This document shows, one piece after another, positions 1-9,329 of a DNA stretch of 20,121 nt; position 1 is the first letter of the stretch; the number at the start of each line of letters is the position of its first letter. Under the pieces are notes generated by a model. That model was not told where the DNA came from and made no database searches. It saw only the letters and a program-made list of their open reading frames with translations. This DNA is from a virus. The DNA lies in IMG/VR virus record IMGVR_UViG_3300039018_000072, positions 1 through 20,121 of that record; one strand, 5' to 3'. A program made the translations under genes and the position numbers.

Positions 1-347
1 CGGATGAGCACTTCAAGTAAGTCCTCCAGAGTGAGTTCCTGTATTTCCGCTTGAGCCTTAGCCATGGTCTCAGGGCGGATGGGGAAATCACCCCAGATAT
101 AGTTCCACTCACTGACCGCAAAGTTGCACGCGGACACAAACCGCTCAACAGGGCAGCGGTAAAAGGAGAAAAATTCATATTCAACTTCACCGAGTACGCG
201 GCCAGCTTCTTGGTAACTAACATGCCCGCCATAGGCGTTACGTACGTGGCCACTGAACTGGGGATGCTTAAAATACTCCATAGCCGAGCGTGTGCCAGTC
301 TTAGGGTTAAGTAAGAGGGCCGTCTTCGCGGCATCAAAAATAATCAT
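1..347 (-). CDS. Sulfotransferase-like protein, C-terminus cut by window edge
   Basis: The first 115 residues are visible and the rest lies beyond position 1. Residues 14-21 (NPKTGTRS) look like the 5'-phosphosulfate-binding loop of PAPS-dependent sulfotransferases (KTGT core). Residues 60-74 (FSFYRCPVERFVSAC) look like the 3'-phosphate-binding segment, usually R-x-P-x-x-R-x-x-S. Members of this family move sulfate from PAPS to hydroxyls on sugars or proteins. The ATG shares one base with the TAA of the upstream hydroxylase-like gene (TAATG), so the two are probably translated together. The acceptor is unknown; a virion protein or a host glycan are both possible. The family call rests on the two motifs only; another P-loop enzyme cannot be excluded. 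Confidence 0.62.
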   Translation of the reverse strand, partial: MIIFDAAKTALLLNPKTGTRSAMEYFKHPQFSGHVRNAYGGHVSYQEAGRVLGEVEYEFFSFYRCPVERFVSACNFAVSEWNYIWGDFPIRPETMAKAQAEIQELTLEDLLEVLI

Positions 348-940
348 TAACTCTGCCTCCTACCCATAGCCCAACTTACAATCGAACGGCGTGAACCAGA
401 TGTCACCGCTTTAACCCGATGCGGCATCCAACTAGCAAACAGTAGGATATCGCCCTTATTAGGTTTAAGGCTCTTGATGTCGTCAAGGTTACCGTTGTTA
501 CAAATCTCGAACTCGCCGCCCTCGTAATCTTCAGGGTTATCAAGCAGCATAACTAAGGAAATCTTACGTTGGTAATTTTCCCACCCGAACGAAAGGTCCC
601 AATGCCACGTATAATGTTGATCTAACCCGTACTTTGTATACTGGAGCGCTTCGACGCCCTCGACGTCATACATAAAGTGGTCGTGGTTGGCCTGTGCGAT
701 AACGCCAGCAAAGCGTTGAAAAATCCAATCAGTGTTCTGGTCGGGGTGCAACCAAGCGACGTCAGAGTCCCGTACTTCCTTACGGGCGGGTTTCCCGCCG
801 TCACTACCGACCGTACCGTTCTGGAAATCCATATGGGCTTCGAGGAAGGTAATACGTGCTATTTCCTCGGGGGTAAATGCGTCCCGCCACACGGCGAAAC
901 ACTCTAGGGGTGCGTTATACTTCATTACACCAAATGGCAT
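347..940 (-). CDS. 2-oxoglutarate/Fe(II)-dependent oxygenase, prolyl 4-hydroxylase-like
   Basis: This 197-aa protein has the double-stranded beta-helix signature of Fe(II)/2OG dioxygenases. His113-x-Asp115 (in WHWDLS) and distal His174 (MPHRV) are the expected iron ligands, and Arg184 or Arg185 is the likely 2OG carboxylate anchor about ten residues later. GGEFEI (141-146) and KGDILLFAS (162-170) match the strands seen in prolyl-4-hydroxylase-type enzymes. Family members hydroxylate proline or other side chains using O2 and 2OG. The start is backed by AAAGGA eight bases upstream. The gene begins 11 bases after the stop of a protein full of X-Pro-Gly triplets and overlaps the sulfotransferase-like gene by one base. 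The substrate is inferred, not shown. Confidence 0.88.
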   Translation of the reverse strand: MPFGVMKYNAPLECFAVWRDAFTPEEIARITFLEAHMDFQNGTVGSDGGKPARKEVRDSDVAWLHPDQNTDWIFQRFAGVIAQANHDHFMYDVEGVEALQYTKYGLDQHYTWHWDLSFGWENYQRKISLVMLLDNPEDYEGGEFEICNNGNLDDIKSLKPNKGDILLFASWMPHRVKAVTSGSRRSIVSWAMGRRQS

Positions 941-951
941 TTTATCGTCCT

Positions 952-1782
952 TTATGTGGACGTAATCGTTACATAGCCTCCTGATGGCACAGAAACGGGA
1001 TACGTCGCGTTGTCTGGGTAGCTATAGTAACTAACCAGTGTTGCAGGTGTCGCCGGAGCAGGCGTGCCACCAGTGTTCGACCCGGGCATTGTGACACCCA
1101 AGGCAGTCGAGGCGTTACCCGGCACAGCCGGGGTAGTAGGGTTGTTACCGGCGAAATTACCGCCAGAGCCGGGGTTATTACCGGCGAAATTACCGGGGGT
1201 GCCGGGGTTGTTACCAGCAAAGTTACCACCCGAGCCGGGGTTAACACCGGAGTTGCCCGGGGTGGAGGGGTTGTTACCGGCGAAATTACCACCCGAGCCG
1301 GGGTTAACACCGGAGTTGCCCGGGGTGGAGGGGTTGTTACCAGCAAAGTTGCCGGGTGTGAAAGTACCGGGGGTATAATCGTCAAAGAAAAAGTTATAAG
1401 ACCCGGGGTTATAGGTCCCGGGGTTAAAGTTTGGGTTGCCCGGAGTGGATGGGTTGGAGAACGGATTGCCCGGAGTGTATGGGTTGAAGAATGGATTGCC
1501 CGGAGTGGATGGGTTGGAGAACGGATTGCCCGGAACGTACGGATTGTAGTTCGGATTGCCGGGAGTAAATGGGTTGTAGTTTGGGTTGCCGGGAACGAAC
1601 GGGTTGTAGTTTGGGTTGCCGGGAACCGCTGCTGTCCCCGTGCCGCCACGACCAGCAACAGTGATCTGATAGCGCCCGTAAGGTATAGAATAGTTATTTG
1701 GCGCGTTATACGTCTGGGTGCCAGTGCCCGAGGCACGCCAAGTTTTTTGTAGCCCGAAGGAGGGCTTACCGGGACCCGCCAT
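952..1782 (-). CDS. Pro/Gly/Asn repeat protein, probable tail fibre or virion appendage
   Basis: A 276-aa low-complexity protein. Residues 30-50 (YSIPYGRYQITVAGRGG) look like the short glycine-rich beta domain found in phage fibre proteins. Residues 53-122 are seven decapeptides of pattern x-PGNP-x-x-NP-x. Residues 145-214 are longer units built from NFAGNNP, TPGN and NPGSGG. About twenty X-Pro-Gly triplets are present, the type of site collagen prolyl hydroxylases use. The C-terminus (about 250-276) is non-repetitive and may be the exposed or folding end. Its ATG overlaps the stop of the upstream fibre-like gene (TAATG), which supports a virion role. No enzyme motif is seen. The exact function is not recognisable from sequence. 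Confidence 0.75.
   Translation of the reverse strand: MAGPGKPSFGLQKTWRASGTGTQTYNAPNNYSIPYGRYQITVAGRGGTGTAAVPGNPNYNPFVPGNPNYNPFTPGNPNYNPYVPGNPFSNPSTPGNPFFNPYTPGNPFSNPSTPGNPNFNPGTYNPGSYNFFFDDYTPGTFTPGNFAGNNPSTPGNSGVNPGSGGNFAGNNPSTPGNSGVNPGSGGNFAGNNPGTPGNFAGNNPGSGGNFAGNNPTTPAVPGNASTALGVTMPGSNTGGTPAPATPATLVSYYSYPDNATYPVSVPSGGYVTITST
1141..1350 (-). repeat. Degenerate in-frame repeats of about 60 bases, NFAGNNP/NPGSGG units
   Basis: Imperfect tandem repeats inside the repeat protein encode residues 145-214. Two units (NFAGNNPSTPGNSGVNPGSGG) are identical in protein and nearly identical in DNA; later units are shortened or rearranged. Lengths are multiples of three, so unit gain or loss keeps the frame. 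Confidence 0.85.
1417..1626 (-). repeat. Seven 30-base in-frame repeats encoding x-PGNP-x-x-NP-x
   Basis: Seven consecutive 30-base units encode residues 53-122. The third, fifth and tenth positions vary mostly between aromatic, Asn and Ser residues, while PGNP and NP are fixed. Some units are almost identical in DNA (the PGNPFSNPST units), suggesting recent duplication. Confidence 0.88.
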
Positions 1783-2594
1783 TACCTAGAATCCTTAACC
1801 GCCAACGATACAACGTAAAAACTACCGTTGTTGTAGGTGTACACGTTCCAAATGTCCACTGCGTTTGCTGTAGTCGTAATCGGCGGGGCCACAGCACCGG
1901 CATACTTGCTACCGGACGGCCAAGTAATCGAACGCCCGCCAGTGCCGTCCTGCGTGGTAATGATGGTGAACCCGTAGGGGGTAGTCGGCAGACCCGTGAA
2001 CGACGAAATGGTCAAATTACCAGTAAGGGTCAGCGAAAACGTGTCGTAGGCTGCTACGTTGATGCTGATCGACCCAGTCTGGTTACCCAGCGCATTGCTT
2101 GCCGACAGCGGCATGAGGCCGGTGGCAGCTATAGTGATCGACCCAGTACTATTGGTGACGTTGATGTTCGTACCAGCAGTCAGCGTAGCTTTAGACAGCG
2201 TGTTGCCGGTGGTGTTGCCGATCAGAAGCTGGCCGTTGGTGTATGTTGTTTGGCCTGTTCCGCCGTTGGCGACCGGAAGAGTACCGTAGCCGTCCGAAAT
2301 AACTTTCTCTGCCGGATACGAAGAGAACACGGTAGATGTGCCCGCAAGGGTAATCGCCGCGCCACCTGCACTAGATGACAGGATCGTTGTACGTGCTAGC
2401 GTAGTACCAGAGGTAGAATATGTGCCGATACCGACTTCCCAAGCGTTACCGCTGGTTATCGTATAGTAGGTAGTATTAGCGTTCCCAATAACCGAAAACG
2501 ACTGGAAACCAGCTACGGCACCAGCAAGAGTTACCGTGCCAGTGCCTGTAGTAGTTGTCGTTTCTTGTACACGGTTAGCGAGGACGAGAGCCAT
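1782..2594 (-). CDS. Tail fibre-like structural protein
   Basis: A 270-aa protein rich in Thr, Ser, Gly and Asn with alternating hydrophobic residues, typical of beta-structured fibres. Residues around 108-113 (VANGGTG), followed by QTTYTNGQLLIGN, match a motif common in phage tail fibres and collar proteins. The C-terminal third (ITWPSGSKYAGAVAPPITTTA...VDIW) resembles the distal end of many such proteins, often the receptor-facing part. The start has a one-base TAATG overlap with the upstream gene's stop. Its last base is also the first of the PGN-repeat gene, so the two fibre-type proteins are probably made together. Which receptor it binds cannot be told. Confidence 0.75.
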   Translation of the reverse strand: MALVLANRVQETTTTTGTGTVTLAGAVAGFQSFSVIGNANTTYYTITSGNAWEVGIGTYSTSGTTLARTTILSSSAGGAAITLAGTSTVFSSYPAEKVISDGYGTLPVANGGTGQTTYTNGQLLIGNTTGNTLSKATLTAGTNINVTNSTGSITIAATGLMPLSASNALGNQTGSISINVAAYDTFSLTLTGNLTISSFTGLPTTPYGFTIITTQDGTGGRSITWPSGSKYAGAVAPPITTTANAVDIWNVYTYNNGSFYVVSLAVKDSR

Positions 2595-5671: not shown

Positions 5672-5904
5672 TTGTAACCACCACCTCTTGCTTTGTACTG
5701 CTTGGCCATCATCTGGGCTTTTCTCGCAGACCACTGGCCCGGATTACCACCTTTACCACCGGCTTTGATGGCGTTGAAGATAGCCTTACGCATACCGGGT
5801 TTGGTATAGTTTCCAGCCTCGTTGACCTTAGACTCACCACCCGCAGCCATACCCTTAGGCTTTTTGGACTTACTTATAGCCCCCATGCCGCGAGACGGGC
5901 GCAT
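5668..5904 (-). CDS. Small basic conserved protein ending WSARKAQ...KARGGGYK
   Basis: 78 aa, strongly basic. Low-complexity N-terminus (MRPSRGMGAISKSKKPKG), then NYTKPGMRKAIFNAIKAGGKGGNPGQWSARKAQMMAKQYKARGGGYK. The C-terminal half is a recurrent phage motif as far as I recall. The ATG overlaps the stop of the large KGG protein (TAATG), and the stop overlaps the GTG of the next gene. No metal or catalytic motif. Probably acts with its equally basic neighbours; function unknown. Confidence 0.7.
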   Translation of the reverse strand: MRPSRGMGAISKSKKPKGMAAGGESKVNEAGNYTKPGMRKAIFNAIKAGGKGGNPGQWSARKAQMMAKQYKARGGGYK

Positions 5905-7199
5905 TAGCAGGTTTTACCACCCTTTTTGAACATAGCACCACCGTAGCTATCGCGTTTGCGCATCAGAGGGGACCCACCACGGGCCATTTTGACCATCGAA
6001 GTTTTGGTCTTGCCCTTGACAGCGCAACCATCAATCGAGCCGCCTTTGGCAAACTTCTTCATCGCACGACCTTCTGTGTCTGCCGACTTCTTCATCATTG
6101 CAGCGCCGAACTTGGTTGCCGCAAAGGGGTTACCCTTAGCTTTACCCTTAGCCGCTGGCTTCATCTTAGCTTTTCCACCTTTTGCCATACCTAAACTTCC
6201 CATAGCCTTCGACGAAGGCATTTCCTTGGTGACGCCACCAGCAGCATACTTCTTCATTTTTCCGCCTTTTGACATACCGGGCGTAGCATTGCGCTTCATC
6301 ATTTCCTTGCGGAACTCGTTGCGCTCTGAAGTCGCCGGAACTGTGTCCGAACCACCTGTAATTGGCTCTTTTGTTAGTTTTTTCTTTAGTGGCATTAGCT
6401 GCTTACCGCCCATAGGCATCGGCTTTTTCTGCATAATCTTACCACCTTTTGCATAACCTTTTGCTTTCTGTGCCTTAGCATACCTAGCGTTAGCTTCGTC
6501 TGAGATATAGCTAAAAGGATTCAAGTACGAGAGAGCCGCACCCATACGCTGGCGACGGCCAGCAGCGGTGTTATCCCGAGGACCAGTATCAGCCTTAGCC
6601 TTAGCCGCTGGTGTACTAGTGCCAGTGCCTTTTTCTAGGTCTTTAGACGCGCCGAGAGTTTTTGGTTTGCTGCTAAACCCTTGGTCGCTAGGTGCATTAC
6701 TCGCCCCAATTTTGGCTTTTTGCCGCGCATTGGCTGCATCCCCAACTGCCTTAAAATTAGATTTTGCTAGGCTATCTTGGAAGAATTTGTTCCGCTTTAT
6801 GTCAGCGGCAGAAGGTTTAGCCGCTGGCTTAGCAGGGGCCTTTTTAGCAGGGGTAGATAGGCCCGATTTTATCGGAGCAAGTACGTTCCCTATCTTAGGC
6901 TCCGAAACTGAAGCTTCAGTGGTCACGGACTTCGGTGCGCCATACTTGCGAGTCTTTTTAAGTTGAACTTCTGCAAGACGCTCTGCTGCGCGGGTAGCGG
7001 TACGATCAGCGCCTGTGCGCTTGGCAAAGTCATCCTTAGCGTCAGCAATACGTTGTTGGCGCTTCGCTTCAGCTACTTCAGCAGCCTTACCCGTCTTACG
7101 GGCCATAGCCTTTGCGTGGTCTTTCTCGATGTCCGCCATACGACGATCATAACGACCTTGTGCGCCACCGGCTGAGAACTTTTTCATTGTACGTGCCAT
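5904..7199 (-). CDS. Lysine/glycine-rich repeat protein with internal DGCA motif
   Basis: 431 aa, very basic and likely mostly disordered. Residues 15-85 look helical and charged (MADIEKDHAKAMARKTGKAA). Residues 110-210 are rich in Ala, Lys and Pro. A single hydrophobic patch lies at 221-234 (AALSYLNPFSYISD). From 250 on there are many KGGK/AKGG units. Residues 381-403 carry KKFAKGGSIDGCAVKGKTK, a motif that ends two neighbouring proteins; here 28 more residues follow, ending KKGGKTC. AAGGA precedes the ATG. It may be a virion core or DNA-condensing protein, by composition only. No known enzyme domain seen. Confidence 0.68.
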   Translation of the reverse strand: MARTMKKFSAGGAQGRYDRRMADIEKDHAKAMARKTGKAAEVAEAKRQQRIADAKDDFAKRTGADRTATRAAERLAEVQLKKTRKYGAPKSVTTEASVSEPKIGNVLAPIKSGLSTPAKKAPAKPAAKPSAADIKRNKFFQDSLAKSNFKAVGDAANARQKAKIGASNAPSDQGFSSKPKTLGASKDLEKGTGTSTPAAKAKADTGPRDNTAAGRRQRMGAALSYLNPFSYISDEANARYAKAQKAKGYAKGGKIMQKKPMPMGGKQLMPLKKKLTKEPITGGSDTVPATSERNEFRKEMMKRNATPGMSKGGKMKKYAAGGVTKEMPSSKAMGSLGMAKGGKAKMKPAAKGKAKGNPFAATKFGAAMMKKSADTEGRAMKKFAKGGSIDGCAVKGKTKTSMVKMARGGSPLMRKRDSYGGAMFKKGGKTC

Positions 7200-7379: not shown

Positions 7380-7634
7380 TCAGCACTTCCATGCCCTAAG
7401 TGATTTGTTAATCCGGCTGTTAGGATCGTTTGCAGTCTTCTTGCTGGTCAGCTTCTTCTTCATCCCAGACATCCGAGCGCAGAATGACTTCTTGCGTGGG
7501 CCACCTTCAGGCTGCGGAGCCTTCAACCCGGGCTTACCCGGATTGGCTTTGTTATAGGACGCACGACCTTTGGCGTTCAGCCCGCCAGACTTCGCTTTGC
7601 CTTCTTTACGTGTCCAAGCAGGCGTCTTGGCCAT
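7380..7634 (-). CDS. Small basic conserved protein (DUF6321-like suspected)
   Basis: 84 aa, rich in Lys and Gly. Order of recognisable pieces: AWTRKEGKAKSGGLNAKGRASYNKANPG, then GGPRKKSFCARMSGMKKKLT, then SKKTANDPNSRINKSLRAWKC. I know this pattern from cyanophage and other aquatic phage proteins; DUF6321 is my recollection of the name. The ATG shares one base with the preceding stop (TAATG). Two cysteines, in FCARM and at the last residue. Function unknown; it belongs to the cluster of basic proteins here. Confidence 0.75.
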   Translation of the reverse strand: MAKTPAWTRKEGKAKSGGLNAKGRASYNKANPGKPGLKAPQPEGGPRKKSFCARMSGMKKKLTSKKTANDPNSRINKSLRAWKC

Positions 7635-8005
7635 TAAACCATCTTCCCTTTGGTTTTGCCGCGTATAGCGCAGCCGTCGATAGAACCACCCTTGGCATAC
7701 TTCTTAATAACCCTACCCTTAGGTGGTGGCTTGGTGGGCATTAAGCTTGGCGGCACGCGGCGCGGGCTTGTTGGTAGTGGCATGGGTTTTGGCTTTGGTT
7801 TGTCGATAGTGCCGCCAGCGGCAAAGTTGTCGTTACGGTCGGGATAGTTCTCATAAGTCGCGCCGTAACGCTTTTTATTTTTCTGACGCCGCATAAGTTC
7901 CGCCATCTCGCGCTCCAAACGCTGGGATTCGCTCTCACCGGGACGAGGTTCAAACCCACGGCGATATCCCGGCTTTGGAGGTACGGGTTTTAAATACTTA
8001 GCCAT
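7634..8005 (-). CDS. Basic Pro-rich protein with C-terminal DGCA-KGKTKG motif
   Basis: 123 aa. A charged helix lies at about 24-44 (ESQRLEREMAELMRRQKNKKR). A proline/lysine linker at 68-97 (DKPKPKPMPLPTSPRRVPPS) follows. The protein ends in KKYAKGGSIDGCAIRGKTKG-KMV (101-123). The final 23 residues are close to 381-403 of the protein at 5904-7199 and related to the end of the protein at 8005-8592. TAATG overlaps at both ends of the gene, linking it to both neighbours. Function unknown. Confidence 0.68.
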   Translation of the reverse strand: MAKYLKPVPPKPGYRRGFEPRPGESESQRLEREMAELMRRQKNKKRYGATYENYPDRNDNFAAGGTIDKPKPKPMPLPTSPRRVPPSLMPTKPPPKGRVIKKYAKGGSIDGCAIRGKTKGKMV

Positions 8006-8592
8006 TACACAAACCTTCCCTTGGTTTTGCCCTTGGTAGCGCAGCCATCGCCGCGCTTAGAAGCAGTACCGCCCTTGGCCATCTTGGTCAGTGGTTGACC
8101 CTTGTGCTTCGCACGCTCGTGTTTATGCACGGCTTCAGCGGCGCTAACCTTACTGCCCTTTTTAAAACCGGGAACTCCGCGCCCCTTGAGTACGTCCGCC
8201 CGAGTGACCTTGCCATCACCAGTGAGGTCGGTGAGCTTACCACCTTTTTTAAACGATGTTTTAAATGTACCGCCTACTTTGCCGCCCCCAAAAGGACTTG
8301 CGCCGACAGAAAAATTGCCTTTACCTACAGGGATATCCCTAAGCCCAAAGACCTTTCCAACGGGAGTTCGTACTTTACCGACGCTCATTTTGGAGCTAGA
8401 AGAACCGCCGCCGCCACCGCCGCCACCGCCGCCACCGCCGCCAGAGTCGTCGCCAAACCTGCCAACGAGGGAGCCACCGACAAAGCTAGGCTCGCGCATC
8501 ATACGATCTAGCGCACGGGCATCCTCTGCACGGCTCCCGCTTACGACGATCTCGCCGCCATCCTCATAACGCTTTGCTTTTTTGCGTGCCAT
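8005..8592 (-). CDS. Poly-Gly protein with EF-hand-like loop and C-terminal DGCA motif
   Basis: 195 aa. Residues 51-63 are thirteen glycines, followed by SSSSKMSVGKV. Residues 122-133 (DLTGDGKVTRAD) match a calcium-binding EF-hand or dockerin loop with Asp at positions 1, 5 and 12. The C-terminus (170-195) is KMAKGGTASKRGDGCATKGK-TKGRFV, the third copy of the shared motif. TAATG overlaps at both ends. A modular virion-associated protein with a flexible glycine hinge is likely; calcium binding is inferred from the loop only. Confidence 0.68.
   Translation of the reverse strand: MARKKAKRYEDGGEIVVSGSRAEDARALDRMMREPSFVGGSLVGRFGDDSGGGGGGGGGGGGGSSSSKMSVGKVRTPVGKVFGLRDIPVGKGNFSVGASPFGGGKVGGTFKTSFKKGGKLTDLTGDGKVTRADVLKGRGVPGFKKGSKVSAAEAVHKHERAKHKGQPLTKMAKGGTASKRGDGCATKGKTKGRFV
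8404..8442 (-). repeat. Poly-glycine microsatellite (gccgccacc period)
   Basis: Thirteen glycine codons, read on the plus strand as acc/gcc triplets with a nine-base period (gccgccacc repeated about three times). Slippage would add or remove whole glycines without breaking the frame, so tract length may vary between related genomes. Confidence 0.85.
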
Positions 8593-9329
8593 TATGCCGC
8601 TTCCTTCTTTGAGGGGACAATCATCGGGTAGAGGACGTCCGTGCCAAATTCACCTTCGTACTCTTGCACGCCCATGTGGCCCAGCTTGATGGTCGGATCG
8701 ACCCAGACCTCAAAGCCTACTTCACGAGCGCGGTCACAGAAGAGATAATCCTCCCCGATGTAACCTTCGTCGGTCTTCATGAAATCAAACATGCAGGGGA
8801 CACTACGCTCTGTGCGTTCATCGTAATAGCGCCACTCAGGGTGAGCAGCGTCTAGGGTCTCGAATACATCGCGGCGGACCATCATAAAGGCAGTAGCTAC
8901 GCGTTTGGCACGGACTAGACCCATCGGGTTCATAGTCAGTTCGTTGTTCTCGTCTTGGTCGAGAGTGGCGATGTATGTCTTAGTAGTGCTACGCGTGCGC
9001 GGTACGCCAGCAACAATGCCCTTCTCAGGGTCTGAAGTCCAAGCCAACAGGCGGAAAACATCAGCAGCTTCAAAATTAATGTCACTGTCGATGAACATCA
9101 AGTCCGTGCAGTCAGAGTCCAGCATATCCTGCGCGAGCAAGTTGCGAGCACGGGAGACAACAGAGCAGCCACAAATCGAGCCAATCTGAATGTCAATCCC
9201 GTGCTGCTGAGCTTGCTGAGCAAACCGAGCCAATGAAATAGCCAACTTCAAAGAGACCTTGAAGTCATAGGACGGAAGCGCAATAAATACGCTACGTCCG
9301 GCTAGGTCATAACCTTTTTCGTTTTGCAT
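8592..9329 (-). CDS. Glycosyltransferase-like protein, GT-A fold
   Basis: 245 aa. N-terminal strand (VFIALPSYDFKVSLKLAISLA). Asp81-Ser-Asp83 in LMFIDSDINF is the DxD-type metal and nucleotide-sugar site. ATAFMMVRRDVFETL (145-159) and GYIGEDYLFCDRAREVGFEVWV (189-210) match later GT-A elements, with Glu193/Asp194 as the likely catalytic region and His218 as a possible third metal ligand. Family-2 or Anp1-like enzymes move a sugar from a nucleotide donor to an acceptor. It sits inside the structural operon, so the acceptor may be a virion protein; host surface glycans or modified phage DNA are alternatives. The sequence looks intact. Confidence 0.8.
   Translation of the reverse strand: MQNEKGYDLAGRSVFIALPSYDFKVSLKLAISLARFAQQAQQHGIDIQIGSICGCSVVSRARNLLAQDMLDSDCTDLMFIDSDINFEAADVFRLLAWTSDPEKGIVAGVPRTRSTTKTYIATLDQDENNELTMNPMGLVRAKRVATAFMMVRRDVFETLDAAHPEWRYYDERTERSVPCMFDFMKTDEGYIGEDYLFCDRAREVGFEVWVDPTIKLGHMGVQEYEGEFGTDVLYPMIVPSKKEAA

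Follow-up and report, generated by a model that had tools for sequence, protein, structure and literature searches.

A gene set encoding a tail fiber, a repeat protein, a 2OG-Fe(II) oxygenase, and a transferase suggests that phages chemically decorate their own host-binding tip. We analyzed this set in one viral DNA, hereafter the window, which is the full IMG/VR record IMGVR_UViG_3300039018_000072 (20,121 bases), and in related loci, which are given L numbers. On balance, we slightly favor the reading that the phage cassette hydroxylates the repeats of its own tail tip and then caps them with GlcNAc or sulfate. This reading draws on the near-constant adjacency of the repeat gene and the 2OG gene, the presence of one 2OG gene per repeat cassette, the PHD-like predicted fold of the enzyme, the Gnt1-family GT60 enzyme encoded downstream, and the retention of Pro in all repeat arrays.

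Gene layout of the locus

The three leftward genes of the original prediction, together with their spacing, were borne out by the ORF coordinates (Table 1). Eleven bases separate the repeat gene from the 2OG gene, and the 2OG and sulfotransferase genes overlap by one base in the sequence TAATG. A one-base overlap likewise joins the tail-fiber-type gene to the repeat gene, which extends the operon upstream of the region first described. The window terminase was 53 to 57% identical to those of the pelagiphage HTVC023P/HTVC027P type and 55% identical to that of lake phage DSL-LC04. Elsewhere in the window, three Lys/Gly-rich proteins (5904-7199, 7634-8005, and 8005-8592, all on the minus strand) have in common a motif like AKGGSIDGCA(V/I)(K/R)GKTKxxMV. 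A phrog_1574 protein (8592-9329, minus strand) lies among structural genes and weakly matches Glyco_transf_21 (glycosyltransferase).

Table 1. Coordinates of the cassette features in the window
Feature	Position	Strand	Remark
Sulfotransferase gene (PF03567-like), first 115 aa	1..347	(-)	Continues past the window edge
3'-Phosphate-binding motif YRCPVERFVSACN	123..161	(-)	Conserved in two homologs
5'-Phosphosulfate-binding motif LLLNPKTGTRS	285..317	(-)	Invariant in the three close homologs
2OG-Fe(II) oxygenase with predicted prolyl-hydroxylase fold, 197 aa	347..940	(-)	Pfam, PHROG, AF2
2OG-binding R184	389..391	(-)	
Distal iron ligand H174	419..421	(-)	
Iron ligands H113 and D115 (HxD)	596..604	(-)	
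Repeat protein, 276 aa, putative tail-tip adhesin and proposed substrate	952..1782	(-)	
Conserved C-terminal domain of repeat protein (ALGVTMPGS...YYSYPDNATYPVSVPSGGYVTI)	955..1137	(-)	
Second repeat array, PGNFAGNNPST / GGNFAGNN units	1138..1362	(-)	Follows short nonrepetitive middle NFFFDDY
First repeat array, about seven 10-residue units PGNPNYNPFV	1414..1626	(-)	
Conserved N-terminal domain of repeat protein (KTWRASGTGTQTYNAPNNYSIPYGR...)	1627..1782	(-)	Alignment A8, 17 loci
Tail-fiber-type gene	1782..2594	(-)	phrog_31660 tail fiber, 4.5e-18

Composition and divergence of the repeat protein

The repeat protein had been credited with about twenty X-Pro-Gly triplets, and 21 Pro-Gly pairs were counted, compared with a mean of 8.1 and a maximum of 19 in 10,000 permutations that left the composition unchanged. 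The triplets recur about every 10 residues, for example in PGNPNYNPFV units, and inspection of the window protein revealed no contiguous collagen-type (Gly-X-Y)n run; from this spacing, the protein is not of the collagen type. The argument from the preference of collagen-type prolyl 4-hydroxylases for X-Pro-Gly fails on the same spacing and on the existence of relatives with zero Pro-Gly, and the collagen reading was rejected.

Across relatives, the ends of the protein are kept (KTWRASG...IPYGR at the N terminus and YYSYPDNATYPVSVPSGGYVTI at the C terminus), and in most members a short nonrepetitive middle is flanked by two arrays. The arrays diverge strongly among clades: the window has PGNPNYNPFV, and units elsewhere are IPGNATGTYNI with NGPQNFNAPT, NYNTNYNVAYPIANQPEAARPATA, NPASYNPRNVAGYSGNNANYN, SYNTVTNYPYTPA, NIATYNAQ, and NFTPGGTNPPNPG. 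Pro-Gly density ranges from 0 to 12.9 per 100 residues, with none in the arrays of L064, L069, L139, and L248, each of which stands beside the same cassette. Pro is retained in every array at 3.9 to 31% of residues, lowest in L139, and Asn, present in all repeat cores at 8 to 26%, is at least as constant. Because its density falls to zero, Pro-Gly is not the common feature of the arrays, in which Pro and Asn are always found. The context of Pro differs widely by clade (TPG, GPQ, YPI, and NPA), and, with Pro as scarce as in L139, the arrays have no single recognition motif. Most arrays, even those nearly without Pro-Gly, are enriched in the pair [YF]N; as a universal target motif the pair was rejected, because the L213 and L214 repeats nearly lack it.

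Profile comparisons did not support kinship of the protein ends with Gly_rich_2 or gp38. Gly_rich_2 (PF21722) had no match at E ≤ 10 in seven repeat proteins, and hhalign of the N-terminal domain against it returned a probability of 0.5%. In L056 (2461-4674), the first repeat gene terminates in a Hint/intein-like sequence (CCFVAGTLVTM...NYFANGVLVG), with a second repeat-family ORF immediately behind it, and L283 and L287 are likewise split in two ORFs. Upstream of the cassette in L006 (3-2606, plus strand) lies the gene for a long, collagen-like, Pro-poor protein that contains GAQGxTGAQG repeats.

Linkage between the repeat gene and the 2OG gene

IMG/VR was searched with the 2OG enzyme, the downstream DUF6065 gene, the GT60 gene, and the N-terminal domain of the repeat protein, the last of which, used alone, is the least biased bait. 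A single N-terminal alignment spanning all clades was too little conserved, and this search was split in two. With the N-terminal bait, the 2OG gene adjoined the repeat gene in all 75 IMG/VR loci with sufficient downstream sequence, a count that includes a few loci with two further genes in between; the six remaining loci end at a contig edge before the 2OG position. Because many contigs are near-duplicates, dereplicated counts are preferred. Collapsing near-identical enzymes gave 58 distinct 2OG enzymes. Upstream sequence exceeded 400 bases for 56 of them, of which 55 come after a repeat gene, mostly less than 100 bases away. As the baits were conserved stretches, the counts describe relatives of the window's family rather than every 2OG gene. 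Both adjacency counts support a dedicated module of enzyme and repeat protein, as originally proposed. The three-gene neighborhood, looked for in relatives, held for the repeat gene and the 2OG gene and did not hold for the sulfotransferase, a minority partner in place of which most cassettes have a GT60/PF11397 transferase. Hydroxylases without a Pro-Gly repeat gene were found, namely, in the four loci with Pro-Gly-free arrays, and a hydroxylase without the repeat-protein family was not encountered among the sampled relatives.

Among remoter 2OG genes, those of viruses (below about 41% identity) and those of bacteria (29 to 39%) mostly had no repeat gene nearby, and none of the relatives in bacterial genomes had one. 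The exception among the remote genes was L074 (39% identity, 271-kb record), in which a repeat gene is present. The cassette was also found on a MAG contig (L291) with a 2OG relative at 49% identity, and this contig is probably phage. At least five records (L054, L056, L059, L071, and L148) carry two cassettes in tandem, in which every repeat gene has a separate 2OG gene behind it. Among 21 searched records (29 to 271 kb), only the twin record has the window terminase; it is therefore probable that several phage backbones with no relation to one another carry the cassette, to the extent that incomplete records permit this conclusion. In isolated phages, the window repeat protein had no match among 50,697 records. 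HTVC023P, a near terminase relative, has no repeat protein annotated in the part of its genome that was inspected, and in DSL-LC04, a Gly-rich protein adjoins a different 2OG enzyme.

Predicted structure of the 2OG-Fe(II) enzyme

The 2OG enzyme matched the profiles 2OG-FeII_Oxy_3 (3.5e-18) and phrog_61 (6e-31). The residues predicted to bind iron (H113, D115, and H174) and 2OG (R184/R185) were all verified in the translation, and in an alignment of 32 relatives, H113, D115, and R184 were invariant and H174 was more than 90% conserved. The AlphaFold2 model, for which an alignment of 32 relatives served as input, had a pLDDT of 91.2 and showed a double-stranded beta-helix. Its nearest fold was the Pseudomonas putida prolyl hydroxylase PPHD (4iw3; Z 21.7), with further matches to human PHD2 (Z 20 to 21), a Trichoplax PHD, PiuC (Z 19.0), PBCV-1 vCPH (5c5t; Z 18.9), and Dictyostelium PhyA (6t8m; Z 18.0). 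This agrees with the prolyl-hydroxylase-like enzyme of the original prediction. In a profile search of the PDB, PiuC-type PKHD was the top match and vCPH the second, placing the enzyme nearer to PiuC than to P4Hs. Since the structural matches are mostly prolyl hydroxylases, the predicted fold favors a peptide prolyl hydroxylase, and it leaves the substrate unfixed. An extra 2OG enzyme in two-cassette phages (L054:5722-6294, L071:6095-6667, and L148:5141) reads MPSRI instead of MPHRV. Judging from this replacement of the distal iron His by Ser, these extra enzymes may be inactive or may work otherwise.

Transferases and DUF6065 genes of the cassette

The window holds 115 of the about 207 amino acids of the sulfotransferase, and the complete gene was read in the twin contig (L002:6594-7217, 207 aa). 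The full-length protein scored 24.6 bits with Pfam Sulfotransfer_2 (cut-off, 22), the 115-aa window fragment by itself gave no match in a Pfam search, and the L213 sulfotransferase (PF03567) scored 40.4 bits. The window enzyme weakly matched phrog_3347 (galactose-3-O-sulfotransferase). Both predicted PAPS motifs, NPKTGTRS and YRCPVERFVSACN, lie inside the window portion and are conserved in two homologs. Sulfation of Tyr in the NPNYNP units would be possible but is not favored, because Phe often replaces Tyr and one relative with a sulfotransferase (L213/L214) is nearly without YN units.

The usual order in relatives is the tail fiber, one or two repeat proteins, the 2OG enzyme, DUF6065, a second DUF6065-like gene, and a PF11397 transferase. 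Without dereplication, 189 of 208 loci have the conserved C-terminal domain of the fiber immediately ahead of the first repeat gene. The PF11397 proteins closing these cassettes scored 86 to 116 bits (cut-off, 21). PF11397 corresponds to CAZy family GT60, in which Gnt1 adds alpha-GlcNAc to Skp1 hydroxyproline after PhyA (PMC6939170, PMC11570480) and which also includes a T. cruzi polypeptide alpha-GlcNAc transferase (PMC6939170). Whole-record searches detected PF11397 in 10 of 16 records and not in L007, L008, L009, L213, L214, and L255 (12.7 to 159 kb), and in all six of the latter a PF03567-type sulfotransferase adjoins the 2OG gene. Within the window's clade, GT60 was found in neither the twin record L007 (63.9 kb) nor L008 and L009, and the window itself stops inside the sulfotransferase gene. 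Both enzymes are present in L139 and L249. A group-adding enzyme in the same cassette, as originally predicted, was thereby supported, being a sulfotransferase in the window's clade and GT60/PF11397 in most relatives. The occurrence of the sulfotransferase where GT60 is missing suggests that the two may be alternative caps, a pattern with few independent lineages behind it.

The DUF6065 pair is as conserved in the cassette as the other members. A model of DUF6065 (pLDDT 89.3) gave weak Foldseek matches to dUTPase and dCTP deaminase (TM 0.3 to 0.4). A DUF6065/phrog_7084 gene also occurs in L207 (Halorubrum virus HRTV-11; 5902-6789), between thymidylate synthase and tail-fiber/adhesin genes; in haloarchaeal tailed viruses with this gene (HRTV-11), no 2OG enzyme is annotated close by. 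Extra 2OG oxygenases and sulfotransferases lie downstream of the cassette in L005 (4468-7238) and L006 (9078-12588), the latter with a fatty-acid-desaturase-like gene as well.

Proposed mechanism and alternative explanations

With its gene immediately after that of the tail fiber and its two arrays between conserved ends, the repeat protein would be a tail-tip adhesin-like protein. The PHD/P4H-like enzyme would hydroxylate the repeats of this neighbor, most likely at C4 of Pro, with O2 and 2-oxoglutarate. The new hydroxyls would be capped by a GT60 (Gnt1-type) GlcNAc transferase in most relatives and by the sulfotransferase in the window's clade, giving a stiffened or varied host-binding tip. 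We consider it likely that the repeat protein is the substrate of the 2OG enzyme and, with less confidence, probable that Pro is the modified residue; we see about even chances that the hydroxyl produced by the 2OG enzyme is what the transferase modifies. Tip stiffening or variation as the purpose, as well as the order of the reactions, is what we infer from this scheme. Several observations count against it: the profile nearest to PiuC, the varying Pro context, the window's clade without GT60, the DUF6065 pair without a role in the scheme, the T. cruzi member of GT60, which acts on Thr, and some second-cassette 2OG enzymes without the distal iron His. More tentatively, the module may be a mobile cassette that hydroxylates prolines of fast-changing tail-tip repeats and then adds GlcNAc or sulfate to the hydroxyproline, that is, a bacterial-virus counterpart of PhyA-Gnt1 that builds or diversifies a host-binding structure.

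The same cassette could instead act on the same protein by beta-hydroxylation of Asn or by hydroxylation of Tyr or Phe, with [YF]-N as the recognition unit. The enrichment of [YF]N, even in arrays nearly without Pro-Gly, and the Asn content of all cores, with L139 and L248 being N-rich and Pro-poor, are consistent with this idea; however, the fold and the nearest solved enzymes are those of prolyl hydroxylases and not of FIH/AspH-type Asn hydroxylases, L213 and L214 nearly lack the pair, and the YN spacing may be structural, and we regard such a target as unlikely. It is quite unlikely that the repeat gene is a mere neighbor in the tail operon and that the 2OG enzyme targets another product of the operon, such as the tail fiber or a DUF6065 protein, or a host protein, such as EF-Tu or one at the cell surface. 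The nearest fold is indeed that of an EF-Tu prolyl hydroxylase, and the fiber gene and DUF6065 are constant neighbors too, but two-cassette phages have one 2OG gene per repeat cassette, the linkage holds though the arrays differ completely, and the remoter 2OG genes lie away from tail repeats.

The GT60 enzyme or sulfotransferase might also act without any link to the 2OG enzyme, for instance on glycans or on Ser, Thr, or Tyr residues in the repeats, which we find rather unlikely. The arrays are rich in Thr and Ser, GT60 has a member not acting on hydroxyproline (PMC6939170), and the phage sulfotransferase PHROG is annotated as a galactose-3-O-sulfotransferase, whereas most complete cassettes have GT60 or a sulfotransferase after the 2OG gene, with the sulfotransferase taking the place of a missing GT60. 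In a further alternative, the 2OG gene would be auxiliary metabolic and serve a PiuC-like purpose, either iron-related or directed at a small molecule, with chance or shared recombination keeping it near the tail. This would fit the PiuC profile match and the usual classification of phage 2OG genes; near-perfect adjacency to one structural gene family across apparently different phage backgrounds makes this very improbable.

Comparison with known systems and significance

The Skp1 pathway of Dictyostelium and Toxoplasma (PhyA and then Gnt1/GT60) likewise combines a PHD-type 2OG enzyme with a PF11397/GT60 transferase. It is eukaryotic, serves O2 sensing, and modifies a single Skp1 Pro, whereas here a phage operon encodes the enzyme beside a repeat tail protein, and the window's clade has a sulfotransferase in place of GT60. 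PBCV-1 vCPH is likewise a virus-encoded P4H and a structural match; however, PBCV-1 is an algal virus, and the enzyme described here is genetically tied to one substrate candidate. We know of no fixed substrate gene or capping enzyme for vCPH. Pseudomonas PPHD, which is closest in fold and of comparable size, differs in having EF-Tu as its substrate, about 18% identity, and a location outside any tail operon. The gp37-gp38 genes of T4-type phages are a fiber-plus-adhesin pair in which a repeat-rich tip protein is likewise encoded directly behind the tail fiber; in contrast, no Gly_rich_2 homology was detected in the seven repeat proteins compared, and T4 is not known to have modifying enzymes. 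The PHROG_61 2OG-Fe(II) oxygenases of marine phages belong to the same broad family as the window enzyme, but the distant relatives examined are unlinked to tail repeats, unlike the window subfamily with its strict neighborhood. PHROG 61 is named in PMC12774648, along with phage 2OG genes with an EGLN3-like fold, and Eriksson 1999, as cited in PMC9301287, reported hydroxyproline in PBCV-1 proteins.

Aquatic phages commonly carry genes for prolyl-hydroxylase-like enzymes, and the viral use of P4H has been called cryptic (PMC9301287). Literature text searches, with most subscription papers outside their reach, returned no description of the cassette, the form of which seems undescribed; its nearest precedents are the PBCV-1 prolyl hydroxylase and the Skp1 pathway. 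Our results suggest self-decoration of a host-binding tip, which has not been shown before for a bacterial virus. For the cryptic phage prolyl hydroxylases, the cassette offers a specific substrate candidate and two candidate follow-on enzymes. If this reading is true, phages would subject a host-recognition protein to post-translational modification and to glycosylation or sulfation. This would bear on host range, adsorption, and the dependence of infection on oxygen, and the protist hydroxyproline-GlcNAc chemistry would gain a viral counterpart.
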